This document shows positions 41,026 through 60,768 of a stretch of DNA of 64,000 bases, piece after piece. Location: assembly GCF_028737205.1 (NCBI RefSeq), contig NZ_JAQZAL010000025.1, positions 1 through 64,000 on the forward strand, given 5' to 3'. Every line of letters starts with the position of its first letter. Position 1 is the first letter of the stretch. Position numbers and translations under genes: made by a program. The DNA is from Actinomycetospora lutea (GTDB taxonomy: Bacteria; Actinomycetota; Actinomycetes; Mycobacteriales; Pseudonocardiaceae). Under the pieces are notes generated by a model that did no database searches, had not been told where the DNA came from, and saw only the letters and a list, made by a program, of their open reading frames with translations.

Positions 41026-42096
41026 TCAGGCGGTCTTGCTGCGCCGTCCCTTGGCCGTCGCGGTCTCGTCGTCGTCCTCGGACTTCTTCTTGGACGAGCT
41101 CTTCGACCGCGTCGACTTCTTCGGCGCCTCCTCGGCAGCCTTCTCCTCGGTGGCCTCCGAGGTCTTCTTGGTCCGCGAGCGCGACCGCTTGGGCTTCTCC
41201 TCGGCGGCGGACTCCTCGGTCGTCTCGACCGTCTCCTGATCGCCGGTGGTCCCGGTCGCGGTCGCGGCCGTGGTCTCGGTACTCGCCTCGGCCGTGGCGG
41301 GCTCCTCGGCGGGCGCCTTCCCGCCGGCCGCCTCGACGCTGCGCCGCAGGGCGGTGAGCAGGTCGGTCATGTCGTCGCCCTCGTCGGCGGGGGCCGCCTC
41401 GGGGGTCGGGCGCCCGCCGCCGTGCTCGCGCTTGTACTCGATGAGGTCGACCATCGCCTGGCGGTAGTCGTCCTCGAACTGGTCGGAGTCGAACTCGCCC
41501 GAGAGGCTCTCCACCAGCGAGGACGCCATCTGCATCTCCTGGGGACGCAGGTCGACCTCGGTGCGCAGGGTCTCGAACTCCGGCTCGCGCACCTCGTCGG
41601 GCCACAGCATGGTCTGCAGCACGATCGCCTCCTCGCGGACCCGCAGCAGCGCGAGCGTCTCGCGCTGGCGCAGCGCCACCTTGACCACGGCCATGCGGTC
41701 GGTCTCGCGAAGGGCCTCGCGCAGCAGGGCGTAGGGCTTGACCGCCTTGCTCTCCGGCTCGAGGTAGTAGCTCTTGTCGAGCAGCAGGGCGTCGATCTGG
41801 TCCGACGGCACGAACTGCACCACGTCGATCTCGTGCCCGGACGCGACCGGCAGCGTCGCGAGGTCGTCGTCGTCCAGCATGATCAGCTGGCCGTCGTCGG
41901 TCTCGTAGCCCTTGGCGATCTCGGAGTACTGCACCTCCTCGCCGCAGACCGAGCACGTGCGCTTCTGGCGGATGCGGCCGCCGTCGCGCTCGTGCACCTG
42001 GTGGAAACGGATGTCGTGGTTCGTGGTCGCGGCGTACAGCCGCACCGGCACGTTCACGAGCCCGAACGACACCGCGCCGTTCCAGATCGCGCGCAT
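41026..42096 (-). CDS. ku: Ku protein, non-homologous end joining
   Basis: A 356-residue bacterial Ku homodimer subunit that binds DNA ends and recruits LigD. The Ku core occupies about residues 1-260 (MRAIWNGAVSFGLVNVPV, RCxVCGEEV-type Cys pair in RTCSVCGEEV, LLDKSYYLEP, EVDLRPQEMQMASSLV). The last 90 residues are a long Glu/Lys/Ala/Thr tail that is probably disordered and helps bind DNA or LigD. It is divergent from a degenerate ligase gene; a true LigD is not in the window. Confidence 0.95.
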   Translation of the reverse strand: MRAIWNGAVSFGLVNVPVRLYAATTNHDIRFHQVHERDGGRIRQKRTCSVCGEEVQYSEIAKGYETDDGQLIMLDDDDLATLPVASGHEIDVVQFVPSDQIDALLLDKSYYLEPESKAVKPYALLREALRETDRMAVVKVALRQRETLALLRVREEAIVLQTMLWPDEVREPEFETLRTEVDLRPQEMQMASSLVESLSGEFDSDQFEDDYRQAMVDLIEYKREHGGGRPTPEAAPADEGDDMTDLLTALRRSVEAAGGKAPAEEPATAEASTETTAATATGTTGDQETVETTEESAAEEKPKRSRSRTKKTSEATEEKAAEEAPKKSTRSKSSSKKKSEDDDETATAKGRRSKTA

Positions 42097-42193
42097 CAGG
42101 GGCCCCTCTCGGCGGGCAGGTCGGTCGGCGCGGTGGGACGGCGCTCACCGTGCGTCGGCACCAGCATGCCCCACCGGCCCCATTCGTCCCAGT

Positions 42194-42225
42194 CAATGAC
42201 GCGCCGACCCCGGTCCCCGTCATTG
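42194..42225. promoter_or_regulatory. Inverted repeat CAATGAC-N18-GTCATTG between ku and the ligase-like gene
   Basis: Perfect 7-base arms, 18 bases apart, midway between the two divergent starts. It could be a shared operator; no regulator is known. Confidence 0.4.
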
Positions 42226-42251
42226 TCGGTCGGCGCAGGCACGATGGCCGC

Positions 42252-42977
42252 GTGCGTCCGATGCTCCCCGTCCCTGGCGACCTCCCGGTCGAGGGCGGCT
42301 GGAGCTACGAGGTCGACTGGGCGGGCGTGCGCCTGCTCGCCGACGTCGACCAGGGCGAGCTCACCCTGCTCACCGCCGAGGGCGAGGACGTCACCGCCCG
42401 CTTCCCCGAATTCGCGGGCCTCGTCGACGCCGTCGCCGACGGCCTGCTCGACGGCGAGGCCGTGATGCTCGACGGCGGCAGCCCGTCGGGCGAGGCCCTC
42501 GGCGCGCGCCTCCAGACCTCCGACGCCGGCCGGGCCCGTGCCATGGCCCGCGAGCGACCGGCGGTGTTCATGGTCTACGACGTCGTGCGGCTCTACGGCG
42601 TGCCCCTCGACCCGCGGCCGCTCGAGGAGCGGCGGGCCGTGCTCTCGCGCCTCGACCTCTCGCACTCGACCCGCATCCAGATCTCCCCGGCCTACGACGA
42701 CGGCCCGGCCCTGCTCTCGGGGGTCATCGCCCAGCACCTGTCCGGTGTGATCGCCAAACGCCGCGGGACGCCCTACCGCCCGGGCGACTCCGGCGGCGAC
42801 TGGATCCGTGTCGACCCCGCGCTCGCGGCCGGGCTGTCCGGGTTGTCCGGGCCGTCCCGGCCGCAGGGTGCCGAGGCGGCCCCGGTGCCACCGACCGGTC
42901 CGGTCGCCCCGCCGCCCTCGCGGCGACCCCGCCACGCCCGCCGCGAACGCACGCCCCAGCACGACACGCTCTTCTGA
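42252..42977 (+). CDS. Degenerate ATP-dependent DNA ligase adenylation-domain protein
   Basis: A 241-residue protein resembling the adenylation domain of LigD/LigC ligases. The motif I position reads YEVDWAGVR where active ligases have ExKxDG, so the nucleotidyl lysine is Asp (D22) and the following Asp is Ala. Motif III (DGEAV), IIIa-like (FMVYDVV) and a weak motif IV (SGVIAKR) remain. There is no OB-fold; the last 55 residues are Pro/Arg-rich. It cannot form the ligase-AMP intermediate as written. Being divergent from ku, it may act as a structural partner in end joining. GTG 42252 is the chosen start. Confidence 0.8.
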   Translation: MRPMLPVPGDLPVEGGWSYEVDWAGVRLLADVDQGELTLLTAEGEDVTARFPEFAGLVDAVADGLLDGEAVMLDGGSPSGEALGARLQTSDAGRARAMARERPAVFMVYDVVRLYGVPLDPRPLEERRAVLSRLDLSHSTRIQISPAYDDGPALLSGVIAQHLSGVIAKRRGTPYRPGDSGGDWIRVDPALAAGLSGLSGPSRPQGAEAAPVPPTGPVAPPPSRRPRHARRERTPQHDTLF

Positions 42978-51093: not shown

Positions 51094-51351
51094 ATGGGAC
51101 TCCGACGTGACTGGTTCGAGCGGGCCCGGCGGGTGCTGGGGATCGGTGCTGCGGCCCGCGAGGTCGCGCGGGAGGCGGAACGCGTGGTGGCCCGGGCGGC
51201 CGCGCGGGACCGGCTCGCGGCGGTGGAGGGCGAGATCGCGTTCCTGCTGGCCGACGAGCGCGTCCCGGCCCGTGGCCGCCGGCTCCGGGCGCTGGAGCAG
51301 GCGCGGGACGACCTGCGCGCCGAGCTCGCCACGAGCCACGGCCCCGGGTGA
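51094..51351 (+). CDS. Hypothetical helical protein upstream of the ECF sigma gene
   Basis: An 85-residue protein of charged, Ala/Arg/Glu-rich helices, likely a coiled coil (AAAREVAREAERVVARAAARD). No domain recognised. TAGTAT ends 5 bases before ATG 51094, so transcription probably starts at or near the codon. It may be in an operon with the sigma/anti-sigma genes: its stop overlaps a GTG that is one possible sigma start. Confidence 0.65.
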   Translation: MGLRRDWFERARRVLGIGAAAREVAREAERVVARAAARDRLAAVEGEIAFLLADERVPARGRRLRALEQARDDLRAELATSHGPG

Positions 51352-51437
51352 CCTCGCCCCACCGACACACTCCGAACGGCCGAACCGTCGGCGTCCCCTG
51401 GGCGAACGGTGCCCAGGAACCCGACGAGGAGGTGGCC

Positions 51438-52118
51438 GTGGTGGTCGAGGTGGCCCTGCCCGTGACGGCACCCCTGGCCCCCGTCCGCGAGGACGAGGTC
51501 GCCGCGACCCCGGTCGCCGAGGGTGGCGCGGCGGCGGCCGACGCCGCGCTCGTCCTGCGGCTCGGCGAGCGCGAGAAGGCCGCGCTCGACGAGCTGTACC
51601 AGCGCTACGGGCGGCCCGCGTACTCGCTCGCGCGCCGGATCTGCGGCGACGAGGGCCTCGCGGAGGACGTCGTGCAGGAGGTCTTCCTCGCGCTGTGGCG
51701 TGACCCGGGCCGGTTCGACCCCGGGCGCGGCACGGTGGCGAGCTGGCTCATGACCCTCGTGCACCACAAGGCCGTCGACGCGGTGCGTCGCGAGGCCACC
51801 CGCCGGCGCCACCACCCCACGACCGGGGAGCCCGACGAGGGCGTGCCGGCGGCCGGACCGTCGGCGGCGCGCCAGGCGCTCGGCTCGGTGATCGGCGAGC
51901 AGGTGCGCGCCGCGCTGCACCGGCTGCCCACCGAGCAGCGCACGGCCCTCGGGCTCGCCTACTACGGCGGCTACTCGCAGCGCGAGGTCGCCAGCCTGAC
52001 CGGCGTGCCCATCGGCACCGTCAAGTCCCGCATGTTCGCCGGTGTCGCGCGCCTGCGGGTGCTGCTCGGCCCGGTGCTGGGGGCCTCGGCCGCCGACGCC
52101 CTCGGGGACTTCGCGTGA
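51438..52118 (+). CDS. ECF sigma factor (SigK-like)
   Basis: A 226-residue ECF sigma factor. Region 2: LDELYQRYGRPAYSLARRIC, then AEDVVQEVFLALWRD and the DNA-melting helix; region 4: HRLPTEQRTALGLAYYGGYS with the helix-turn-helix TGVPIGTVKSRMFAGVARL. GAGGAGG is 5 bases before GTG 51438; GTG 51348, overlapping the previous stop, would add 30 residues. The anti-sigma gene overlaps its stop as GTGA. Its regulon may include the fusion kinase next door, which is only a guess from position. Confidence 0.9.
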   Translation: MVVEVALPVTAPLAPVREDEVAATPVAEGGAAAADAALVLRLGEREKAALDELYQRYGRPAYSLARRICGDEGLAEDVVQEVFLALWRDPGRFDPGRGTVASWLMTLVHHKAVDAVRREATRRRHHPTTGEPDEGVPAAGPSAARQALGSVIGEQVRAALHRLPTEQRTALGLAYYGGYSQREVASLTGVPIGTVKSRMFAGVARLRVLLGPVLGASAADALGDFA

Positions 52119-52945
52119 CCACCTGCGCTCGGCGTGACGACGCCGTCGGCCACGCCTTCTCCGCCCTCGAGCCCGACGAGGACCGCGCGCTCGAGGCCCA
52201 CCTGCCGCACTGCCCGGTCTGCCGGCGGGCCCGCGACGAGGCCCTGGACGTCGTGGCCGCGCTCGGCCGGGCGGTGCCGCCGCTCGAGCCGCCGGACGAC
52301 CTGCGCCGGCGGGTCCTCGACGCGGCCCGCGCGGAGCCGGGACGCCGTCCGCGGCCCGCGGTCCCCGCGCCCCCCGTGCCCCCCGCGCCCCCCGCGCCCG
52401 ACCCCGTCGCGGCCCCGGAGCCCCGCCGGCGCCGGGTCCTCACCGCGGTGGGCGGGCTGGTCGCCGCCGTCGTGCTGGGGGTCGGCCTGATCGTCGCCCA
52501 GGGGGTCCTGCCGACTCGGTCGACGCCCGCGGACGACCCGGTGACGGCGCTGGCCGACCAGGCCGACCGCGTGGTCGGCGACGCCCGCTCCCGCGACCCC
52601 GGCGCCCGCACCACGATCCTGCGCTCCGAGACGGGCACGCCCGCGGCGGTCCTCGTCGACCCGGGGGACGCGAGCACGCCGGTCCGCCTGGTCGCCCTGG
52701 ATCTGCCGCCCACGGGCAACGCCCGCGACTACGTGGTCTGGGCGACCGGGCGGCCCGGCAACACGCCCGAGGCGGTGGCGGTGATGGACCCGGACGACGG
52801 GATGACACGCCCGCTCGCCGCACCGGACGGGCCCGCCTTCCCGGGTGACCCCGGACCGCGCGGCTGGGCCGTGTCGATCGAGCCGACCGGGCCGGTGCCC
52901 GCGCGGCCGTCGACGGTCGTCGCGATCGGCCTGGTGGCCGGCTGA
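52115..52945 (+). CDS. Anti-sigma factor, zinc-finger / RskA type
   Basis: A 276-residue single-pass membrane protein. The N-terminal zinc motif HLPHCPVC (HxxxCxxC) holds the sigma factor, a Pro-rich linker follows, one helix lies at about 109-130, and the extracellular RskA-like domain ends in RPSTVVAIGLVAG. It keeps the upstream SigK-like factor inactive until released, probably by proteolysis. GTG 52115 overlaps the sigma stop. A 183-base gap separates it from the fusion kinase gene. Confidence 0.9.
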   Translation: MTTCARRDDAVGHAFSALEPDEDRALEAHLPHCPVCRRARDEALDVVAALGRAVPPLEPPDDLRRRVLDAARAEPGRRPRPAVPAPPVPPAPPAPDPVAAPEPRRRRVLTAVGGLVAAVVLGVGLIVAQGVLPTRSTPADDPVTALADQADRVVGDARSRDPGARTTILRSETGTPAAVLVDPGDASTPVRLVALDLPPTGNARDYVVWATGRPGNTPEAVAVMDPDDGMTRPLAAPDGPAFPGDPGPRGWAVSIEPTGPVPARPSTVVAIGLVAG

Positions 52946-53128: not shown

Positions 53129-54877
53129 ATGACGGACGTGGCGACCCTCGGGTTCTCGGGCGCCGCCCTCGGCACGACCGCCGGCGAGGCCTCGCCCGGG
53201 CGACCCATGCTCGCGAGCGCCGGCGACATCCCGCGCGGCGCCGGCTGGGCGTTCGAGTTCGTGTGGGACGGGCTGCGCTGCCTGGCCCGCACGGGCGCCG
53301 ACGGTCTGGTCCTCGTCACCGAGGCGGGCCGCGACGTCACCTCGCATTTCCCGGAGCTCGGGGTGTCGGCGCCCTGGACGAGCACGGAGGGTCTGGTGCT
53401 CGACGGGGTCGTCGTGGCCCTCGACGGGGTCGGGCGCCCGAGCGCGGGCAAGCTGCGCCGCCGCGCCCGGGTCGCGCACCCCTCGGAGATCCTGCAGGCC
53501 CGGGTGCCCGTGTCCTTCTACGTCTTCGACGTGCTCGAGGTGGCCGGCGCCTCGACCCGTCGGCTGCCCTACCGCCAACGTCGCGAGCTGCTCGCCGAGC
53601 TCGACCTCTCCGGGAGCCGTGTCGTGATCCCGCCGTCCTTCACCGGTGTCGACGCCGACGCGGTCGTGAGCACCGCGCGGCGCTACGGGCTCGACGGTGT
53701 GGTGGCGAAACGGCTGGAGTCGACCTATCAGGTCGGCCGGCGCTCGCGCAGCTGGATCGAGGCGCCCGTGCGGCGCACCCAGGACGTCGTCGTCGGCGGC
53801 TGGATCCCCGCCCGTGACCGCCCCGGCACCGTGGGCGCCCTGCTGGTCGGCGTGCCCGGCGAGTCGGGGCTGAGCTACTCCGGCCGGGTCGTCACCGGCG
53901 TCACCGCGGCCGCGCGCCGCGAGCTCGACGGGATCCTCACGCCGCTCGAGCGCGAGGTCAGCCCGTTCGCCACCGCGCTGCCCGAAGGTGAGGGCGGCGC
54001 GGTGCACTGGCTCGCGCCCCGCCTGGTCGGGCAGGTCGAGCACCGCCGCTGGACCGCCACCGGCCTGCTCGAGCGGCCCACCTGGCAGGGCCTGCGCGCG
54101 GCCCATCCCGCCACCGTCGCCGCGCCGGTGCTCTCCGCGCCCGTGGTCGACACCGACCTGGAGCTGGACGACCTGGAGACCGCCGAGGTGCCCACCCGCC
54201 GCACCCCCGCGACGCCCGCCGACGTCGTCGCCGTGCCGTCCGCCGAGGACGTGGAGTCGGCGCTGCGCTCGCGGTTCTCGGCGCACTTCGTGCACAACAC
54301 GCTCACGGCGATCGCCTCGTACGTGCGCACCGACCCGGGCCGGGCGCGCGAGCTGCTCACCGAGTTCGCCGACTTCACGCGCTACTCGTTCCGCTCGGGC
54401 GGCGAGCTCACCACCGTCGGCGACGAGCTCCACAACGCCGAGCGCTACCTCACCCTCGAGCAGGCCCGCTTCGGGCAGCGGCTCCGCGCCGAGGTCGCGG
54501 TGGCGCCCGAGGTGCGCCACGTGCTCGTGCCGCCGTTCGTCGTGGCCCCGCTGGTGGAGAACGCCGTGCGCCACGGCATCGAGCCGGTCCCGGGCGGCGG
54601 CTCGGTCAGCGTCTTCGCCTCCGGCTCCGGGTCCGACTGCGTGATCACGGTGTCCGACGACGGCGCCGGCATGGGCCCGGAGGCGACGCGCACCGCCTCG
54701 CAGGTCGACCGCCGCCACGGCGGCATCGCCGAGGTGTCCCGCCGGCTGCACGCCACGTTCGGCTCGCAGTGCGACGTCCACGTCGACACGCGACCCGGCG
54801 TCGGCACGGCGGTGCGCCTGCGGCTCCCGGCGATCACGGCGTCGGCGGCCGAGCCGAGCCGGGTCCTGGTCGGCTAG
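53129..54877 (+). CDS. Fusion of a degenerate ATP-dependent DNA ligase with a LytS-type histidine kinase
   Basis: A 582-residue soluble protein in one uninterrupted frame. Residues 30-215 resemble a DNA ligase adenylation domain: motif I is EFVWDGLR with Val45 in place of the nucleotidyl lysine, IIIa is FYVFDVL, IV is DGVVAKR (K194). Residues 215-325 look like the ligase OB-fold (TQDVVVGGW, GRVVTGVTAAARRELDGIL, RWTATGLLERPTWQGLR). After a linker, 380-570 is a His_kinase/HATPase module: AHFVHNTLTAIASY with likely phospho-site H386, N-box LVENAVRHG (N478), G1 box DDGAGMG. There is no membrane segment and no response regulator nearby. GGAGGAGG precedes ATG 53129. Confidence 0.88.
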   Translation: MTDVATLGFSGAALGTTAGEASPGRPMLASAGDIPRGAGWAFEFVWDGLRCLARTGADGLVLVTEAGRDVTSHFPELGVSAPWTSTEGLVLDGVVVALDGVGRPSAGKLRRRARVAHPSEILQARVPVSFYVFDVLEVAGASTRRLPYRQRRELLAELDLSGSRVVIPPSFTGVDADAVVSTARRYGLDGVVAKRLESTYQVGRRSRSWIEAPVRRTQDVVVGGWIPARDRPGTVGALLVGVPGESGLSYSGRVVTGVTAAARRELDGILTPLEREVSPFATALPEGEGGAVHWLAPRLVGQVEHRRWTATGLLERPTWQGLRAAHPATVAAPVLSAPVVDTDLELDDLETAEVPTRRTPATPADVVAVPSAEDVESALRSRFSAHFVHNTLTAIASYVRTDPGRARELLTEFADFTRYSFRSGGELTTVGDELHNAERYLTLEQARFGQRLRAEVAVAPEVRHVLVPPFVVAPLVENAVRHGIEPVPGGGSVSVFASGSGSDCVITVSDDGAGMGPEATRTASQVDRRHGGIAEVSRRLHATFGSQCDVHVDTRPGVGTAVRLRLPAITASAAEPSRVLVG

Positions 54878-54931: not shown

Positions 54932-55036
54932 TCAGTCGTCGTCGTCCACGACCACGGGGTCGGCCGCCGCGAACGGCGCGGCGGCGAGCAGCCCGGCGCC
55001 GCAGAACGCGACGATCGAGGCAGAGCGTCGGAACAT
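54932..55036 (-). CDS. 34-residue secreted acidic peptide
   Basis: A short gene encoding a peptide with a basic start, a hydrophobic core (SIVAFCGAGLLAAAPFAAA) and the end DPVVVDDDD. This looks like a signal peptide followed by an acidic tail of about eight residues. GAGGAG lies 7 bases before ATG 55036, a good ribosome site. The peptide could be exported and bind a metal or act as a signal; no family is recognised. Confidence 0.55.
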   Translation of the reverse strand: MFRRSASIVAFCGAGLLAAAPFAAADPVVVDDDD

Positions 55037-55217
55037 GAGGGGTCTCCTCGCGATGGGTGAACGAAAGAGACCGTTCGGCACATCTGCAGCTGCGATGAAC
55101 CCCGCTCTCCGGGGGCCGGCAATCGGTGCGACGAAGGGCCACCGGAAAGCGTGGCGGTCGAGTGAACGGGACGGGCGGTGGGGTGCGCGCCGAACGGTCC
55201 TCGGGACAGGAGGAACG

Positions 55218-56021
55218 GTGCGGAGCCGGGGACGGGAGAGCCGGGGCGTGGAGGCGATCGCGATCGACTGGTCCGGCGACGCACGGGCAGCCCACCGGCG
55301 CATCCGCGTGGCGACCGCGCGCCCGGGCCGCCTGCTCGCGGTCCGGGCCGGTCTCGACCGCGCGGGGGTCGCCGACCTCCTGCTCGAGCGCGCGGCGTCC
55401 GGGCCCGTCGTCGCGGGTCTCGACTTCTCGTTCGCGCTGCCGGCCTGGTTCGCGCGCGAGCACGGGTGCGGCGACGTGGCCGCGCTGTGGGAGCTCGTGG
55501 GCCGCGAGGGTGAGCGCTGGCTGCGCGAGTGCCGGCCGCCGTTCTGGGGCCGTGGGGCGACGCCGCGGCCCCCGGCCGACCCGGCGCGACCGCGGTTCCG
55601 CGTCACCGAGGAGGCCGTCCGCGCCGACGGGCTGACCCCGACCTCGACGTTCCAGATCGGCGGGGCCGGCGCGGTGGGCACGGGCTCGCTGCGCGGGATG
55701 CCGCACCTCGCGCGCCTGCGCGCCGCCGGCTTCGCGGTGTGGCCGTTCGACGACGCCGGGCCCGCGACCCTGGTGGAGATCTACCCGCGCGTGCACACGG
55801 GGCTGGTGGTCAAGCGCTCGCCGGCGGCGCGACGCGGGGCCGTGCGCGCGGACCCGCGCATCCCCGCGGCGCTGCGCGACGACGTCGTGGCGAGCGAGGA
55901 CGCCTTCGACGCCGCGGTCTCGGCGCTGGCGATGGCCGAGCACCTCGACGCGCTCCGGTCGCTGCGCGCCGCGCCGCCGGGGAGTGCCGAGGCGATCGAG
56001 GGCGCGCTCTGGCGCCCGTGA
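55218..56021 (+). CDS. DUF429 family protein
   Basis: A 267-residue protein with the DUF429 (RNase H-like fold) start IDWSGDARAA and later GLDFSFALPAWF, GRGATPRPP and EDAFDAAVSALAMAEH, the last with the conserved acidic residues. A nuclease or nucleotide-related role is suggested by the fold, not shown. AGGAGG lies 4 bases before GTG 55218; GTG 55248 would begin nearer the conserved motif. Convergent with tatB, 5 bases apart. Confidence 0.82.
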   Translation: MRSRGRESRGVEAIAIDWSGDARAAHRRIRVATARPGRLLAVRAGLDRAGVADLLLERAASGPVVAGLDFSFALPAWFAREHGCGDVAALWELVGREGERWLRECRPPFWGRGATPRPPADPARPRFRVTEEAVRADGLTPTSTFQIGGAGAVGTGSLRGMPHLARLRAAGFAVWPFDDAGPATLVEIYPRVHTGLVVKRSPAARRGAVRADPRIPAALRDDVVASEDAFDAAVSALAMAEHLDALRSLRAAPPGSAEAIEGALWRP

Positions 56022-56026
56022 CCCCG

Positions 56027-56323
56027 TCAGCGGCGGCTGCGCACCGCCGGCGCCGGGACGTCCCGGAACGCCTCCCGCACCGCGCGGCGCGGGTCCGCCG
56101 AGCGGATCTCGGCGAGCGGCTCGCGCAGCTCGTCGAGCTGGCGGCGGACCTCGGCGAGGTCGGCCGCGGTGTCGACCTGCTCCCGGACCGACGCCGCGTA
56201 GCCCTTCACCTGCGTCGCGGCGCGGGCCAGCGACCGGATGGCACCGGGGAGGCGCTCGGGGCCGATGACGAAGAACCCGATCAGGGCGAGCAGCACGAGC
56301 TCACCCATGCCCAGTCCGAGCAC
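56027..56323 (-). CDS. tatB: Twin-arginine translocase TatB-like subunit
   Basis: A 98-residue protein with one N-terminal helix ending in the FFVIGPERLPGAIRSLARA motif (phenylalanine-glycine-proline hinge), then a long amphipathic helix and a charged tail. TatB recognises twin-arginine substrates with TatC. It is 3 bases after the tatC stop and ends the operon. A divergent TatA is the alternative. Confidence 0.85.
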   Translation of the reverse strand: MLGLGMGELVLLALIGFFVIGPERLPGAIRSLARAATQVKGYAASVREQVDTAADLAEVRRQLDELREPLAEIRSADPRRAVREAFRDVPAPAVRSRR

Positions 56324-56326
56324 GGG

Positions 56327-57232
56327 TCACCTCCCTGTCGAGAGCGGGTCGGGATCGGCGTCCGGGAGCGGCGACGGGCTGTCGTCGTCGAGGTCCTCCC
56401 AGCCCGGGCGGCGACGGGCCCGGCGGCGGTCGTGGAGGCGGCAGACCTGGATGGCCAGCTCGAGCAGCACACAGAGCGCCGCGCCGAGGACGGCCATGGA
56501 GATCGGGTCACCGCCCGGCGTCGCAATCCCGGCGAAGAGGAAGGCGCCGAAGATGATCCCGCGTCGCCAGCTCGCGAGCTTGCGGTACGAGACGACCCCG
56601 ACCCGGTTGAGCATGACCACGACCAGCGGGGTCAGGAACCCGACGCCGAACACGACCATCAGCGACAGGACGAGCGAGTAGTACTCGTCGCCGCGCAGCG
56701 CCGTCGTCTGGACCGAGTTGCCGATCCCGAGCAGGAAGCTCAGCGCCTGGGCGACGACGAGGTAGGCCAGGACCGCGCCGCCCGCGAACAGCACCGACGC
56801 CGTGCTGACGAACAGCACCGCCCCGCGCCGTTCCGCGCGCCGCAGCCCGGGGGTGACGAACGCCCACAGCTGGCCGAGCCACCCCGGGGCCGACAGCACC
56901 ACCCCCGCCGTCGCCGCGACCTTGATGCGCAGCAGGAACTGGTCGAACGGGCCGGTCGCGAGCAGGCGGCAGTCGGTGCCGTTGAGTCCCGCCCGCGCCG
57001 AGGGGGGCAGCGAGCAGTAGGGCTCGATGAGCAGCGAGCCGAGGCTCGGCACGCCCGGGAACGCGTTCTCGTACCAGACGAACCCGACCACCGTGCCGAC
57101 GGCGATCGCGGCCAGCGCCCAGGCCAGGCGGCGGCGCAGCTCGAGGAGGTGGTCGAGGAACGACATCGTCGCCTCGGGGTCCCGGCGCCGTCCGGGCCAC
57201 CACCGCGTGAGGCGGTGCGTGAGCGTGGGCAC
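56327..57232 (-). CDS. tatC: Twin-arginine translocase subunit TatC
   Basis: A 301-residue protein with six membrane helices. The N-terminal MSFLDHLLELRRRLAWALA is the usual TatC start (LxELRxR), with GFVWYENAF, FLLRIKVAATAGVVLSAP, and FGVGFLTPLVVVMLNRVGVV further on, and a loop with an FLFAGIATPGGDPISM. TatC receives the RR signal. The tail ends in many charged residues. It lies 4 bases after tatA. Confidence 0.93.
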   Translation of the reverse strand: MPTLTHRLTRWWPGRRRDPEATMSFLDHLLELRRRLAWALAAIAVGTVVGFVWYENAFPGVPSLGSLLIEPYCSLPPSARAGLNGTDCRLLATGPFDQFLLRIKVAATAGVVLSAPGWLGQLWAFVTPGLRRAERRGAVLFVSTASVLFAGGAVLAYLVVAQALSFLLGIGNSVQTTALRGDEYYSLVLSLMVVFGVGFLTPLVVVMLNRVGVVSYRKLASWRRGIIFGAFLFAGIATPGGDPISMAVLGAALCVLLELAIQVCRLHDRRRARRRPGWEDLDDDSPSPLPDADPDPLSTGR

Positions 57233-57236
57233 GGGG

Positions 57237-57485
57237 TCAGACCGTCGTGCCGTTCGAGGTCCGGGTCGGGACGGCCTCGACGGGCGCCGCCGCGGTGTCC
57301 TGCGGGAGCTCCTTGGTCGCGGTCTTCTGGGTGTCGTCCTCGGTCAGCGCCGAGGTCTCGGCCTTGAAGATGCGCAGCGAGCGGCCGATGCCGCGGGCGG
57401 CGTCGGGCAGGCGCTTCGCGCCGAACAGCAGCAGCAGGACGACGAGGATGATCAGCCAGTGGGACGGGCTCAGGGCTCCGGTCAT
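57237..57485 (-). CDS. tatA: Twin-arginine translocase subunit TatA
   Basis: An 82-residue TatA: one helix (WLIILVVLLLLFGAKRLPD), hinge FGAKRLPDAARGIGRSLRIF and a charged, Thr-rich tail. It should form the pore. First Tat gene of the row; iorA ends 46 bases upstream on the same strand, so the molybdo-enzyme and its transporter may be cotranscribed. Confidence 0.93.
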   Translation of the reverse strand: MTGALSPSHWLIILVVLLLLFGAKRLPDAARGIGRSLRIFKAETSALTEDDTQKTATKELPQDTAAAPVEAVPTRTSNGTTV

Positions 57486-57531
57486 GACGGTTCCTTCCGG
57501 GGAGCGTGCGGGGGAGCGGACGGCGCCGGAC

Positions 57532-58008
57532 TCACATGTTCTCGGCGCCCTGCTTGATGGCCTCGCGGATGCGGGCGTAGGTGCCGCAGGCGCACATGTT
57601 GCGGATCTCGTCGATGTCGTCGTCGGTGACCGACCCGCCCTCGGCCTGGACCTTCTTGACCAGGTCGACCGCGGCCATGATCTGGCCGGGCTGGCAGTAA
57701 CCGCACTGGGGCACGTCCCGGTCGATCCACGCCTCCTGCATCGGGTGCAGGTCGGCGCCGACGGTGTCGGGCAGGCCCTCGATGGTGGTGATCTCGTCGG
57801 TGGGCCGGATCTGGCCCACCGGGACCGAGCAGGGGTTGAAGGCGCGGCCGTTGATGTGGCTGGTGCAGGCCTTGCAGACGTTGATGCCGCAGCCGTACTT
57901 CGGGCCGTTGATCTTCAGGAGGTCGCGCAGCACCCAGAGCAGGCGCACGTCGTCCTCGACCTCGACGGTGACCGGTCGGCCGTTGACCTTGAAGGTGTGG
58001 GGAGGCAT
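57532..58008 (-). CDS. iorA: [2Fe-2S] subunit of an isoquinoline 1-oxidoreductase-type enzyme
   Basis: A 158-residue small subunit of the xanthine-oxidase family. Plant-type cluster cysteines: CGINVCKAC and a later C (ANPC-like FNPC); the second cluster has CGYCQPGQ and CACGTY. It passes electrons from the large subunit to an acceptor. It ends 10 bases after the large-subunit stop in the same operon. Confidence 0.92.
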   Translation of the reverse strand: MPPHTFKVNGRPVTVEVEDDVRLLWVLRDLLKINGPKYGCGINVCKACTSHINGRAFNPCSVPVGQIRPTDEITTIEGLPDTVGADLHPMQEAWIDRDVPQCGYCQPGQIMAAVDLVKKVQAEGGSVTDDDIDEIRNMCACGTYARIREAIKQGAENM

Positions 58009-58018
58009 GCGGGGCTCC

Positions 58019-60529
58019 TCAGCTCGCGGGGTTGAACGCCGGGCCGGCGGCGGACGGCGTGGGGTAGGCCGTCAGGCCGTCCACGGGCGACGGGGGGAGC
58101 GGCGGGACGACGGGCTTGACCTCGAACGGCACGTCCTTGGTGTGGCCGATCGGGAAGCTGGTCGGCATCTCGCCGACGGCCCGGGCGTAGGCGCAGGCCA
58201 CCGCGGCGGTCGCCGCACCCACCGCGAGCTCGCCGGCGCCGCCGGGACGATCGCCGCTGGGCGGCATGACGATCACGTCGATCTCCGGCGGGGCGTTCCA
58301 GTGCCGCGTGTAGCGGTAGTCGTCCCAGCTGCCCTCGAGGAAGTTGCCGTCGCGCAGGTGCAGGCTGCCGGTGAAGACGTGGGCGATGCCCGTCATCACC
58401 CCGCCCTCCATCTGCGCCTTGAGGCCGAGCGGGTTGATGGGCAGGCCGACGTCGACCGCGACGGTCACCTTCGTGACCCGGGGGCCGGTGGTCGCGCCGG
58501 CGATCTCCCGCTCCGCGGTCGCGGTGCGCGTGTCGACCTCGACGAGCACGGCGACCGAGCCCTTGTACTCGTTGTGCACGACGACGCCCTGCGCGACGCC
58601 CTCGGGCAGGTCGCGACCCCAGTCGCCCTCGTCGCGGACCGTCTCCAGGCACGCCTTCGCGCGCTCGTCCTCGACGCGTTCGAGCCGGAACTCCATCGGG
58701 TCCTCGCCGATCCGCGCGGCGAGCTGGTCGACCATGAGCTCCTGGGCGGGCCGGAAGTCCTGGTTGTTGAGGTTGCGGACGCTGCCGGTGGCGAACCGGT
58801 CGAAGTCGAAGATCTCGTTGTAGCCGAGCGCGATCGCCCCCAGGTCGTACGGGACGCTGGCGGTGAGCAGGAAGACCGTCTGCGAGAGCGTGAGCTCGTT
58901 GGCGAACGGCAGCTTCGCGGCCTGCGAAGTGATCATGTCGCCGAAGGACTCGGTGTAGTCGGTGGCGACGCTGGTGTGCCGCTGCTCGAAGCTGACGACC
59001 TCGCTGCCGCTGAAGGAGGCCCGCACCCGGGAGATGCACATCGGGTGGACACGACCGGCCCGGCACTCGTCGGCGCGGTGCCACATGAGCCGCACCGGCT
59101 TGCCGATCTCCTGGGACACTCGCGCCGCGTCCAGGGCGACGTCGCTGAAGAGGCGGCGGCCGAAGGCGCCGCCGCCCCGCGGCACATGGACGGTCACCTG
59201 CCCCGGGGTCATCCCGAGCACCTGGGCGATCTGGGACTGGGTGACGATCGGGATCTGGCTGGGGGTCCAGATCTCCGCCTCGCCGTCGCGGACGTCGGCG
59301 ATGGCGACGTTCGGCTCCATCGCGGCGTTGCTGCGCCAGTAGAAGACGAACTCCTGGTCGATCGTCTCGACCGCCCCCACGCCGTCGAGGGCGCCGGTCG
59401 CGGGCTCGGTGACGAGCGGGAGGACCCCGCCGGCCTCGTCCAACGGGCCCGGCGAGGGCAGGTTGGCCGGCGCGTCCGCCGCGCGGAGCTGTTCCAGGAT
59501 CGTCGCGTCCGACTCGTCGTCGACGTTGCCGCCGCCCCAGGTGATGTCCAGCGCGTTGACCGCGTCGATGCACTGCCCGAACGTGCGCGCGCGCACCGCC
59601 ACCGCCGAGGACGTGGTGCCCCGGCCGGGCTCGGCGTCGGTGGAGATCTCCACGACGTCCGTGACCCCGGGCATGCCCTTGACCTCGGCGAGGTTGTCGA
59701 CCGACTCGACGGTTCCCTTGATCGTCGGCGGCCGGGCGATCATGGTCGGCAGGGCCTCGGGGACGTCCAGGTCCATCGTGTACTTCTTGCGCCCGGTGAC
59801 CGCGGCGAGGACGTCGTCGCGGCGCTGCGGGGTGCCGATGACCTCGAACTCGTCGACCGGCTTGAGCTCGGTGATCGCCTCGCGGGTCACCGAGTTCGCC
59901 GCCGCGGCGGCCAGCTCGGCGAAGGGGACGCTCGAGCCGGCGGTGGAGAGCACCCGGCCGCCGGTGGTGCGGAGGTTCTCGGCCTCGTCGCCGAGGATCG
60001 TCGCCGCCGCCTCGACGAGCTGGCCGCGGGCCAGCGCCGCCGCCACCCGGACCGGCGTGTAGATGGAGATGACCGAGGCCGAGCCCTGCGTCTGCTGGTT
60101 GAACAGCAGCTCCGGGCGCGCGTCGGCGAGGGTGACGTTGACGTCGGAGACGTCGATGCCCATCTCCTCGGCGATGAGCATGGCGGCCGTGGTGGTGATC
60201 CCCTGGCCGCTCTCGGCCCGCGGGATGCTGAACGAGACGGTCCCGTCCTCGTTCACCACGATCGTGATGAGGTTCGCCGTGGGGCGGGTGGAGTCGAGCA
60301 GGAGGTCGGAGAGGTCGTAGACCTCCGACACCTCGGGCGTCGGCGAGGGCAGCGCCTGCGCCTCGAGCACGCCGTCCGCGGTCAGCTTCACCCCGACCGC
60401 CAGCGTCGGCGCGGCGATCAGGTAGCCGAGGAACCGGCGCCGCTGCATGCCGCCGGGCGCGCCCGCGGAACTCTTGTTCGCGACCGGACGACGTGATGGA
60501 CGCGGGGCAGTGCGGTGCTTGGCCGGCAT
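58019..60529 (-). CDS. iorB: Molybdopterin-binding large subunit, isoquinoline 1-oxidoreductase-type, with Tat signal
   Basis: An 836-residue molybdo-hydroxylase/aldehyde-dehydrogenase subunit. The twin-arginine signal is RRRFLGYLIAAPTLAVG near residue 30, so it is exported folded, presumably by the tatABC genes next to it. Molybdopterin segments include ESGQGITTTAAMLIAEE, VPRGGGAFGRR, GYNEIFDFDRFATGSVRN and GGAGELAVGAATAA with the catalytic Glu. It needs the cytosine-dinucleotide cofactor. Substrate is unknown (N-heterocycles or aldehydes). ATG 60529 is the start. Confidence 0.93.
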   Translation of the reverse strand: MPAKHRTAPRPSRRPVANKSSAGAPGGMQRRRFLGYLIAAPTLAVGVKLTADGVLEAQALPSPTPEVSEVYDLSDLLLDSTRPTANLITIVVNEDGTVSFSIPRAESGQGITTTAAMLIAEEMGIDVSDVNVTLADARPELLFNQQTQGSASVISIYTPVRVAAALARGQLVEAAATILGDEAENLRTTGGRVLSTAGSSVPFAELAAAAANSVTREAITELKPVDEFEVIGTPQRRDDVLAAVTGRKKYTMDLDVPEALPTMIARPPTIKGTVESVDNLAEVKGMPGVTDVVEISTDAEPGRGTTSSAVAVRARTFGQCIDAVNALDITWGGGNVDDESDATILEQLRAADAPANLPSPGPLDEAGGVLPLVTEPATGALDGVGAVETIDQEFVFYWRSNAAMEPNVAIADVRDGEAEIWTPSQIPIVTQSQIAQVLGMTPGQVTVHVPRGGGAFGRRLFSDVALDAARVSQEIGKPVRLMWHRADECRAGRVHPMCISRVRASFSGSEVVSFEQRHTSVATDYTESFGDMITSQAAKLPFANELTLSQTVFLLTASVPYDLGAIALGYNEIFDFDRFATGSVRNLNNQDFRPAQELMVDQLAARIGEDPMEFRLERVEDERAKACLETVRDEGDWGRDLPEGVAQGVVVHNEYKGSVAVLVEVDTRTATAEREIAGATTGPRVTKVTVAVDVGLPINPLGLKAQMEGGVMTGIAHVFTGSLHLRDGNFLEGSWDDYRYTRHWNAPPEIDVIVMPPSGDRPGGAGELAVGAATAAVACAYARAVGEMPTSFPIGHTKDVPFEVKPVVPPLPPSPVDGLTAYPTPSAAGPAFNPAS

Positions 60530-60768
60530 GGAGGTCCCTTCGGGCGAATCCGGAGGAGCCGATCGCCGCAGTGGTGGGGAGCTTGAAGGAGTAACGAAGT
60601 GGGTCACGCGAACGTAACGGGTGACTGTCAAGATCATTAAACGTGGTGTCGCCCGCACGGACGAGCGGCCGGGTGGCCGCGGTCACCGGCACCTATCCGT
60701 CCCCCGTTCGAGGCAGGATGGGAGGTCCGGGGGGACCAGCGGCATGCGGCGAGAGGGAGGAGCGCGGG
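60530..60768. other. Intergenic region between the iorB and Gfo/Idh genes
   Basis: A divergent 239-base gap. It is AT-richer around 60590-60650 (CAAGATCATTAAACG), so it likely carries promoters for both directions. No clear operator palindrome was found. Confidence 0.35.

Follow-up and report, generated by a model that had tools for sequence, protein, structure and literature searches.

A single open reading frame in the window, i.e., the whole stretch of 64,000 nucleotides of Actinomycetospora lutea DNA that was analysed, joins a ligase fold of the non-homologous end joining (NHEJ) type to a LytS-type histidine kinase module, and the same architecture recurs within the Pseudonocardiaceae, where the fusions form one group in the trees of both halves. 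The nucleotidyl lysine of the ligase half is absent from every readable member, the gene is linked to Ku in three genera, and the ATPase motifs of the kinase half are kept in some groups and lost in others. As judged from the sequences, what unites the family is an apparently dead ligase together with putative phospho-acceptor helices; the window protein itself could well act as a kinase that uses the pseudo-ligase as its sensor, in connection with NHEJ.

Architecture, recurrence and origin of the fusion

The frame of the fusion runs from ATG to stop with zero internal stops, and the following features can be placed in it.

53129..54877, + strand: pseudo-ligase / LytS-type histidine kinase fusion, 582 aa (Pfam)
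53192..53773, + strand: ligase nucleotidyltransferase (NTase) domain without nucleotidyl Lys, residues ~22-215 (PF01068, 1vs0/6nhx, site table)
53261..53263, + strand: codon 45, Val replacing the motif I nucleotidyl Lys
53774..54103, + strand: OB-fold domain of the ligase half, residues ~216-325 (PF04679, predicted model)
54116..54256, + strand: linker, residues ~330-376 (low model confidence; region of highest dN/dS in Actinomycetospora)
54257..54484, + strand: DHp (dimerisation and phospho-acceptor) domain, residues 377-452 (PF06580; most constrained region)
54284..54286, + strand: codon of His386, predicted phospho-acceptor (69/69 fusions)
54485..54838, + strand: HATPase (CA) domain, residues 453-570 (PF02518)
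54560..54562, + strand: N-box Asn478
54656..54670, + strand: G1 box

The initial annotation had described a ligase adenylation domain and OB-fold joined in one frame to a His_kinase/HATPase module, and had proposed a profile search against both ligase domains and His_kinase. Four Pfam matches above their cut-offs confirm this description: DNA_ligase_A_M at residues 37-210 (70.6 bits, cut-off 26.2), DNA_ligase_A_C at residues 233-324 (62.3 bits, cut-off 27.5), His_kinase PF06580 at residues 378-452 (61.1 bits, cut-off 25.2) and HATPase_c at residues 471-568 (38.2 bits, cut-off 26.4). In a phmmer search of the PDB, the closest solved structures are the ligase domain of M. tuberculosis LigD (6nhx, 6nhz, 1vs0) for residues 25-325 (E ~1e-51) and the histidine kinase GanS (6swj) for residues 381-568 (E 1e-18). 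Structure prediction, likewise suggested at the outset, yields two ordered halves (mean pLDDT 81) on either side of a linker of low model confidence (residues 334-346 and 351-379), and Foldseek with this model again ranks LigD at the top (34-35% identity). Classical LytS kinases have a membrane-spanning sensor part, whereas hydropathy gives no membrane segment for the window protein (highest 19-residue mean 1.36), as had been annotated.

Recurrence of the architecture, also put forward as a check, was found in four Pseudonocardiaceae genera, from which 69 distinct fusion sequences were compared, and it makes the observation stronger. The family survey covered 390 Pseudonocardiaceae genomes of 46 genera, one match or frame across both halves being counted as a fusion. 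Carriers are 17 of the 18 Actinomycetospora genomes (the missing case is 83% complete), 10 of the 11 genomes of genus g14, both genomes of genus g45 (with three copies) and at least 39 of the 62 Pseudonocardia genomes (g30); none was seen in other genera of the family among the matches listed. Both halves lie in one frame in 55 loci, some of them duplicates, and named carriers include A. straminea (L038), A. callitridis (L039) and P. eucalypti (L041). Outside the Pseudonocardiaceae, no fusion was found in 397 genomes of the order (E limit 1e-70) or in 394 genomes of the class (E limit 1e-68), limits at which distant fusions could be missed, and none was seen among the best 80 loci of the wider search. 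The viral collection gave no relative of the fusion at the search sensitivity used, and of the 316 plasmid records with a match none extends over 80% of the query, the matches listed (20 rows) involving the ligase half only.

In an unrooted tree of the ligase half, built from 38 of the 51 fusion-labelled rows and 17 stand-alone ligases with the long rows L004 and L005 left out, the fusions all lie on one side of a branch with support 100/95; the corresponding branch of a larger, quick and likewise unrooted tree (88 rows) has support 94. The unrooted tree of the kinase half separates 26 fusions from 20 kinases with support 95. Since the fusions group on one side of a branch in both trees, one fusion event followed by vertical descent is the simplest reading, and the sequences point to a family of probably single origin in the Pseudonocardiaceae.

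The loss of ligase residues throughout, and of ATPase motifs in many fusions, might also be expected of an artefact or a decaying gene, whether a chance join, a frameshift or a pseudogene. Such an origin is so improbable as to be practically negligible. The frameshift or assembly join at residues 330-370 that the initial annotation had considered is ruled out by the single frame of 69 distinct fusions in four genera, recurrence that already refutes an artefact, and the grouping in both trees speaks against it as well. So does the low dN/dS of both halves in close relatives: among six close Actinomycetospora it amounts to 0.19 in the ligase half, 0.43 in the linker, 0.07 in DHp and 0.13 in the ATPase part, so that both halves of the fusion are under constraint. 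Over 11 Actinomycetospora dN/dS is 0.29-0.51 and in the main Pseudonocardia group 0.45-0.93, all these values being rough Nei-Gojobori counts, biased upward by a GC content of about 97% at third positions.

Residue loss in the ligase half and two fates of the kinase half

The nucleotidyl Lys of motif I (KxDG) is found in 0 of 68 readable fusions. Of 23 ligase-like genes that have no kinase half, 22 carry it, and the one that does not is the Ku-adjacent gene of the window. At this site the fusions carry Val, Ala, Leu, Ser, Thr, Tyr, Arg or Gly. The initial annotation was correct on both substitutions that it listed for the window protein, namely Val45, where 1vs0 has Lys, and Val94 for the motif III Glu of stand-alone ligases; Glu at position 94 occurs in 0 of 68 fusions. 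Residue 211 of the window protein is Glu, as opposed to the motif V Lys of stand-alone ligases. Not each ligase motif is gone everywhere, since the motif IV Glu (189) is present in 14/69 fusions and Lys at 211 in 3/69 (L209, L213, L220), all of the latter from the main Pseudonocardia group. When a set of 20 stand-alone ligases is taken as the reference, with conservation of 90% or more as the limit, the stand-alone residue is kept in 0 of 51 fusion-labelled rows at positions 45, 65, 94, 114, 211 and 263, and the 56 conserved positions common to both sets in the same comparison look structural. To judge from this pattern, the ligase half looks dead across the family rather than recently decayed. 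The net charge of the fusion ligase halves is mostly positive (group medians +6 to +12, range -3 to +17), compared with a median of +3.5 in 22 stand-alone ligases and -6 in the Ku-adjacent pseudo-ligase; positive charge would be expected of a fold still meeting nucleic acid, for which it is weak evidence.

Regarding the kinase half, the earlier statement that phospho-His, N-box and G1 box are kept holds for the window protein, in which His386, Asn478 and Asp510-Asp511-Gly512-x-Gly514, respectively, are intact. His386, Phe387, Asn390, Arg407, Arg418, Glu433 and Arg451 are invariant in 69/69 fusions. The N-box Asn is kept in 31/69 fusions and missing in 38/69, so that break-dependent autophosphorylation cannot be the conserved function of the family. 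Both this Asn and the tabulated G1 residues are found in 17/17 Actinomycetospora, 10/10 g14 and 3/3 g45 sequences, and the G2 glycine pair, among the fusion groups, in Actinomycetospora only. A small Pseudonocardia group has the N-box Asn in one of three members. In the main Pseudonocardia group it is found in 0/36, the G2 region is missing in 36/36, and the chain ends soon after the lost G2 region (34 of 36 examined); this group has 29 invariant positions among the 76 of DHp, and 6 among the 118 of the ATPase part. HATPase_c gave no Pfam match in the three main-group and one small-group Pseudonocardia fusions scanned.

With the N-box Asn lost and the G2 region missing, main-group Pseudonocardia fusions should not self-phosphorylate, nor should the two small-group members that lack this Asn, and kinase activity looks dispensable in the one large group. 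A phospho-acceptor kept without the ATPase suggests either that phosphate arrives from elsewhere, as in Spo0B and ChpT (sections of PMC3433190), or a conserved docking role. The pattern of a kept phospho-His with a lost ATPase site, typical of Spo0B/ChpT-like proteins, is seen in the 36 Pseudonocardia sequences but not in the window protein, whose ATPase motifs are intact. Two enzymes would have turned into pseudo-enzymes, in turn, inside one fused protein, ligase residues being lost in all members seen, ATPase motifs in one large group, and the phospho-acceptor kept throughout.

Ku linkage, neighbouring genes and a candidate partner

The genes of the window that bear on its genomic context are the following.

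41026..42096, - strand: Ku, 11 kb from the fusion
42150..42977, + strand: second ligase-like gene, adjacent to Ku; comprises the NTase domain alone, with Asp at the site of the motif I Lys (uncertain start codon)
51348..52118, + strand: ECF sigma factor (SigK-like), upstream of the fusion
52115..52945, + strand: putative anti-sigma factor, ending 183 bases before the fusion (best model below cut-off)

In 15/15 Actinomycetospora examined, Ku, which binds DNA ends in NHEJ, is found in the same arrangement 8.0-13.6 kb from the fusion with other genes between, as measured from Ku domain match to fusion match and not from gene to gene; a distance of 8-14 kb is a weak linkage. The fusion of g14 lies directly downstream of Ku on the same strand in 10/10 loci, with start codons at -4 to +85 nt from the Ku stop (8 of 10 loci readable), and in g45 Ku adjoins the fusion on the opposite strand in two of three copies. 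Ku is near the fusion in 0 of 15 Pseudonocardia genomes, being on the same contig at a distance of at least 492 kb in five and on another contig in ten. The Ku genes linked to fusions, as represented by the rows of the distance survey and the g45 copy L136, are split over two Ku subclades (g14 versus g45/Actinomycetospora), so that the link is not simply one inherited pair, and the association appears to have arisen, or to have been kept, in more than one Ku lineage. Proximity to Ku could be inherited from a ligase ancestor beside Ku. Contact between Ku and LigD is direct, the ligase domain being bound by the Ku core (as stated in part of PMC9638933), and a pseudo-ligase could thus be recruited by Ku, which would be as plausible as direct end binding.

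The second ligase-like gene (42150-42977) is divergent from Ku, has a net negative charge and is kept in 15/15 Actinomycetospora, the own genome among them. Its 15 rows form a separate group, and the corresponding Ku-adjacent genes at 12 Pseudonocardia loci encode ligases that do carry the Lys, so that an origin of the fusion from this gene is unsupported.

Other neighbours vary with the genus. The cluster of the SigK-like sigma factor was picked up at 8 of the 12 long-flanked Actinomycetospora loci, window included, and that of the downstream neighbour (55035-56021, + strand), which has no Pfam match at E 0.01, in 13 Actinomycetospora loci including the window. Further on, at 56027-60658 (- strand), are three short genes which by eye we take to be TatB, TatC and TatA, next to a molybdenum-hydroxylase-like pair. 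In Pseudonocardia loci L119-L135, a helicase-cluster member (DEAD-box/DUF3516 in the one scanned) accompanies the fusion in 17/17 cases and is divergent from it in the 14 loci where the fusion was placed; a GH65-cluster member occurs in 16/17 and a topoisomerase IB-cluster member in 4/17 (one each scanned). The small Pseudonocardia group (L118, L156, L157) has a tyrosine-phosphatase-cluster gene after the fusion, the L118 copy being Y_phosphatase3, and g45 locus L136 has a 235-aa gene of the fusion's own cluster beyond Ku. A role in anti-phage defence was discarded, as neither the fusion nor Ku nor the second ligase-like gene is matched by PADLOC.

Among the neighbour-cluster representatives scanned with Pfam, no response regulator was seen near the fusion. 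The closest kinase relative in the own genome is a LytS-type paralogue (G000:C47, L203) with 52% identity over fusion residues 377-573, which has a LytTR regulator at most 6 kb off and a sodium-solute symporter near; the two LytTR proteins of this genome are on contigs C47 and C18, neither on the contig of the fusion. Each of the 40 fusion-bearing genomes tested has a strong match to LytS (E up to 1e-60) along with one or more LytTR proteins, the number being exactly one in 6/8 g14 genomes and 8/9 Actinomycetospora relatives. Identity between the Actinomycetospora fusion and LytS is 0.64 over DHp and 0.47 over the ATPase part. It reaches 0.82 at the start of DHp helix 2, which, together with the single LytTR protein in most of these relatives, would make the regulator of the LytS paralogue the likeliest partner. 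Partner choice may nevertheless have changed, as identity is 0.48 round the phospho-His in Actinomycetospora and 0.51 over DHp in Pseudonocardia. Cross-talk with a LytTR regulator and heterodimers with LytS are guesses drawn from these comparisons.

Proposed role, alternatives and known systems

We know of no dedicated signalling component of bacterial NHEJ. A conserved protein that has kept the ligase fold but not the nucleotidyl Lys, has gained a phospho-signalling module and, in one genus, immediately follows Ku may be regarded as a candidate for NHEJ signalling. Bacterial NHEJ is described as consisting of two parts, Ku and LigD (in portions of PMC8656161 and PMC5124664). In the open-access literature, subscription papers and preprints being outside the scope, no title or abstract on a ligase-kinase fusion was found; two open-access papers with both ligase and kinase terms, as checked by term search, treat the subjects apart, and the term "pseudoligase" is used there only in ubiquitin-ligase and pseudoenzyme papers.

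The initial annotation had proposed a kinase whose sensor is an inactive ligase fold. For the window protein this proposal has gained ground, with the Lys absent in 68/68 fusions, intact kinase motifs, a recurring architecture and Ku linkage in three genera. It does not stand as a rule for the family: the main Pseudonocardia group (36) is without N-box Asn and G2, two of the three small-group members are without the N-box Asn, and Ku is not near. A "break-sensing kinase" is thus a possible description of the window protein, but not of the family at large.

The explanation that we consider best, and hold with moderate confidence, would be NHEJ-linked pseudo-ligase signalling or docking through a LytS-like phospho-acceptor dimer. 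The NHEJ-type ligase fold, being without adenylylation residues, would be the part that binds ends or nicks in DNA, Ku-bound ends, or both, and a flexible linker would join it to LytS-type dimerisation and phospho-acceptor helices. In the window protein, the pseudo-ligase would load onto Ku-bound or nicked DNA, binding would shift the placement of the two protomers, and the intact ATPase domain would then phosphorylate His386, from which the phosphate would pass to a LytTR response regulator, most likely that of the paralogous LytS kinase. In the main Pseudonocardia group, the helices would be a phospho-acceptor or a heterodimer partner of the LytS orthologue, following Spo0B/ChpT- or RetS-like logic. 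DNA or Ku binding, autophosphorylation, a partner regulator and break-dependent signalling are what we infer. A wider and distinctly more tentative proposal is a bacterial break-signalling pathway in which the dead NHEJ ligase would read ends, alone or on Ku, and feed a LytS-family His-Asp relay, the Pseudonocardia fusion receiving phosphate from LytS or gating it as a heterodimer. The signal in that pathway would be "break held yet unsealed". If true, a histidine kinase made out of a pseudo-ligase would be analogous to the break-activated kinases of eukaryotes.

Three other explanations can be weighed against the same observations. The kinase helices might only dimerise the dead ligase, giving a dimeric NHEJ scaffold that bridges or caps two ends, or that keeps Ku together with an active ligase, without phospho-signalling. 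The operon-like order with Ku in g14, the absence of a response regulator among the neighbour representatives scanned and the conservation of DHp above all other parts even where the ATPase half is lost (the 29/76 against 6/118 of the main Pseudonocardia group) agree with it. However, pure dimerisation demands neither a His386 invariant in 69/69 fusions, including the 36 without N-box Asn and G2, nor the tabulated N-box, G1 and G2 residues kept in 17/17 Actinomycetospora, and we regard a mere scaffold as unlikely. It is improbable that the signalling is unrelated to NHEJ, with the ligase fold binding RNA or another ligand and the vicinity of Ku an ancestral leftover: linkage to two different Ku subclades, g14 versus g45/Actinomycetospora, argues against a leftover, even if Ku is not near in 15 Pseudonocardia genomes and a helicase-cluster member (DEAD-box/DUF3516) is found with the fusion in 17/17 Pseudonocardia loci.

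Lastly, the Lys-less pocket might bind ATP or another nucleotide unreacted and report the energy state to the kinase half. It took the K481M mutation to trap LigD with ATP still unreacted (as presented in parts of the review PMC8656161), which shows that a pocket without the Lys is able to accommodate ATP; the best PDB matches of the ligase half come from that work. Since the residues at 65, 94 and 211 are also gone in the 51 fusion-labelled rows (Lys211 in 3/69 of the larger set), a nucleotide sensor is very improbable.

NHEJ-linked signalling or docking, the reading preferred here, can be compared with several known systems. The LytS-type paralogue (G000:C47, L203) has PF06580 and HATPase in common with the window protein, whose boxes are intact. 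Unlike the paralogue, whose N-terminal part gives no Pfam match, the fusion has a ligase fold there and no LytTR gene beside it, and the N-box is lost in the main Pseudonocardia group. The nearest solved relative of the kinase half, the GanS kinase domain (6swj, 6swk), is itself without a ligase part. RetS is a kinase region pairing with the DHp of another kinase, and the RetS/GacS heterodimer (7n0e, among the fold matches by title) is a precedent for pairing of the fusion with LytS; such pairing is a guess, and RetS/GacS, unlike the fusion, has no ligase part. The ATPase-like domain of Spo0B and ChpT is non-catalytic. These proteins carry their phospho-His on a dimeric helical hairpin (sections of PMC3433190), and fold matches of the fusion include a phosphotransferase-receiver complex (4qpj); the likeness, which would extend to phosphotransfer by analogy, fits the main Pseudonocardia group only, and the fusion differs by its N-terminal pseudo-ligase.

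With regards to the ligase half, Streptomyces has single-domain NHEJ ligases (LigC/LigD) that are used with Ku and likewise consist of LIG domains without a polymerase domain (parts of PMC5124664, in the main text of which the word "kinase" does not occur); these ligases are active, unlike the fusion half predicted to be dead. The ligase domain of M. tuberculosis LigD (1vs0, 6nhx, 6nhz) shares the NTase domain, the OB-fold and the fold residues with the window protein, whereas the window fusion is without the motif I Lys and motif III Glu, the motif V Lys is nearly always lost in the fusions, and the fusion carries a kinase module and no polymerase or phosphoesterase domain.
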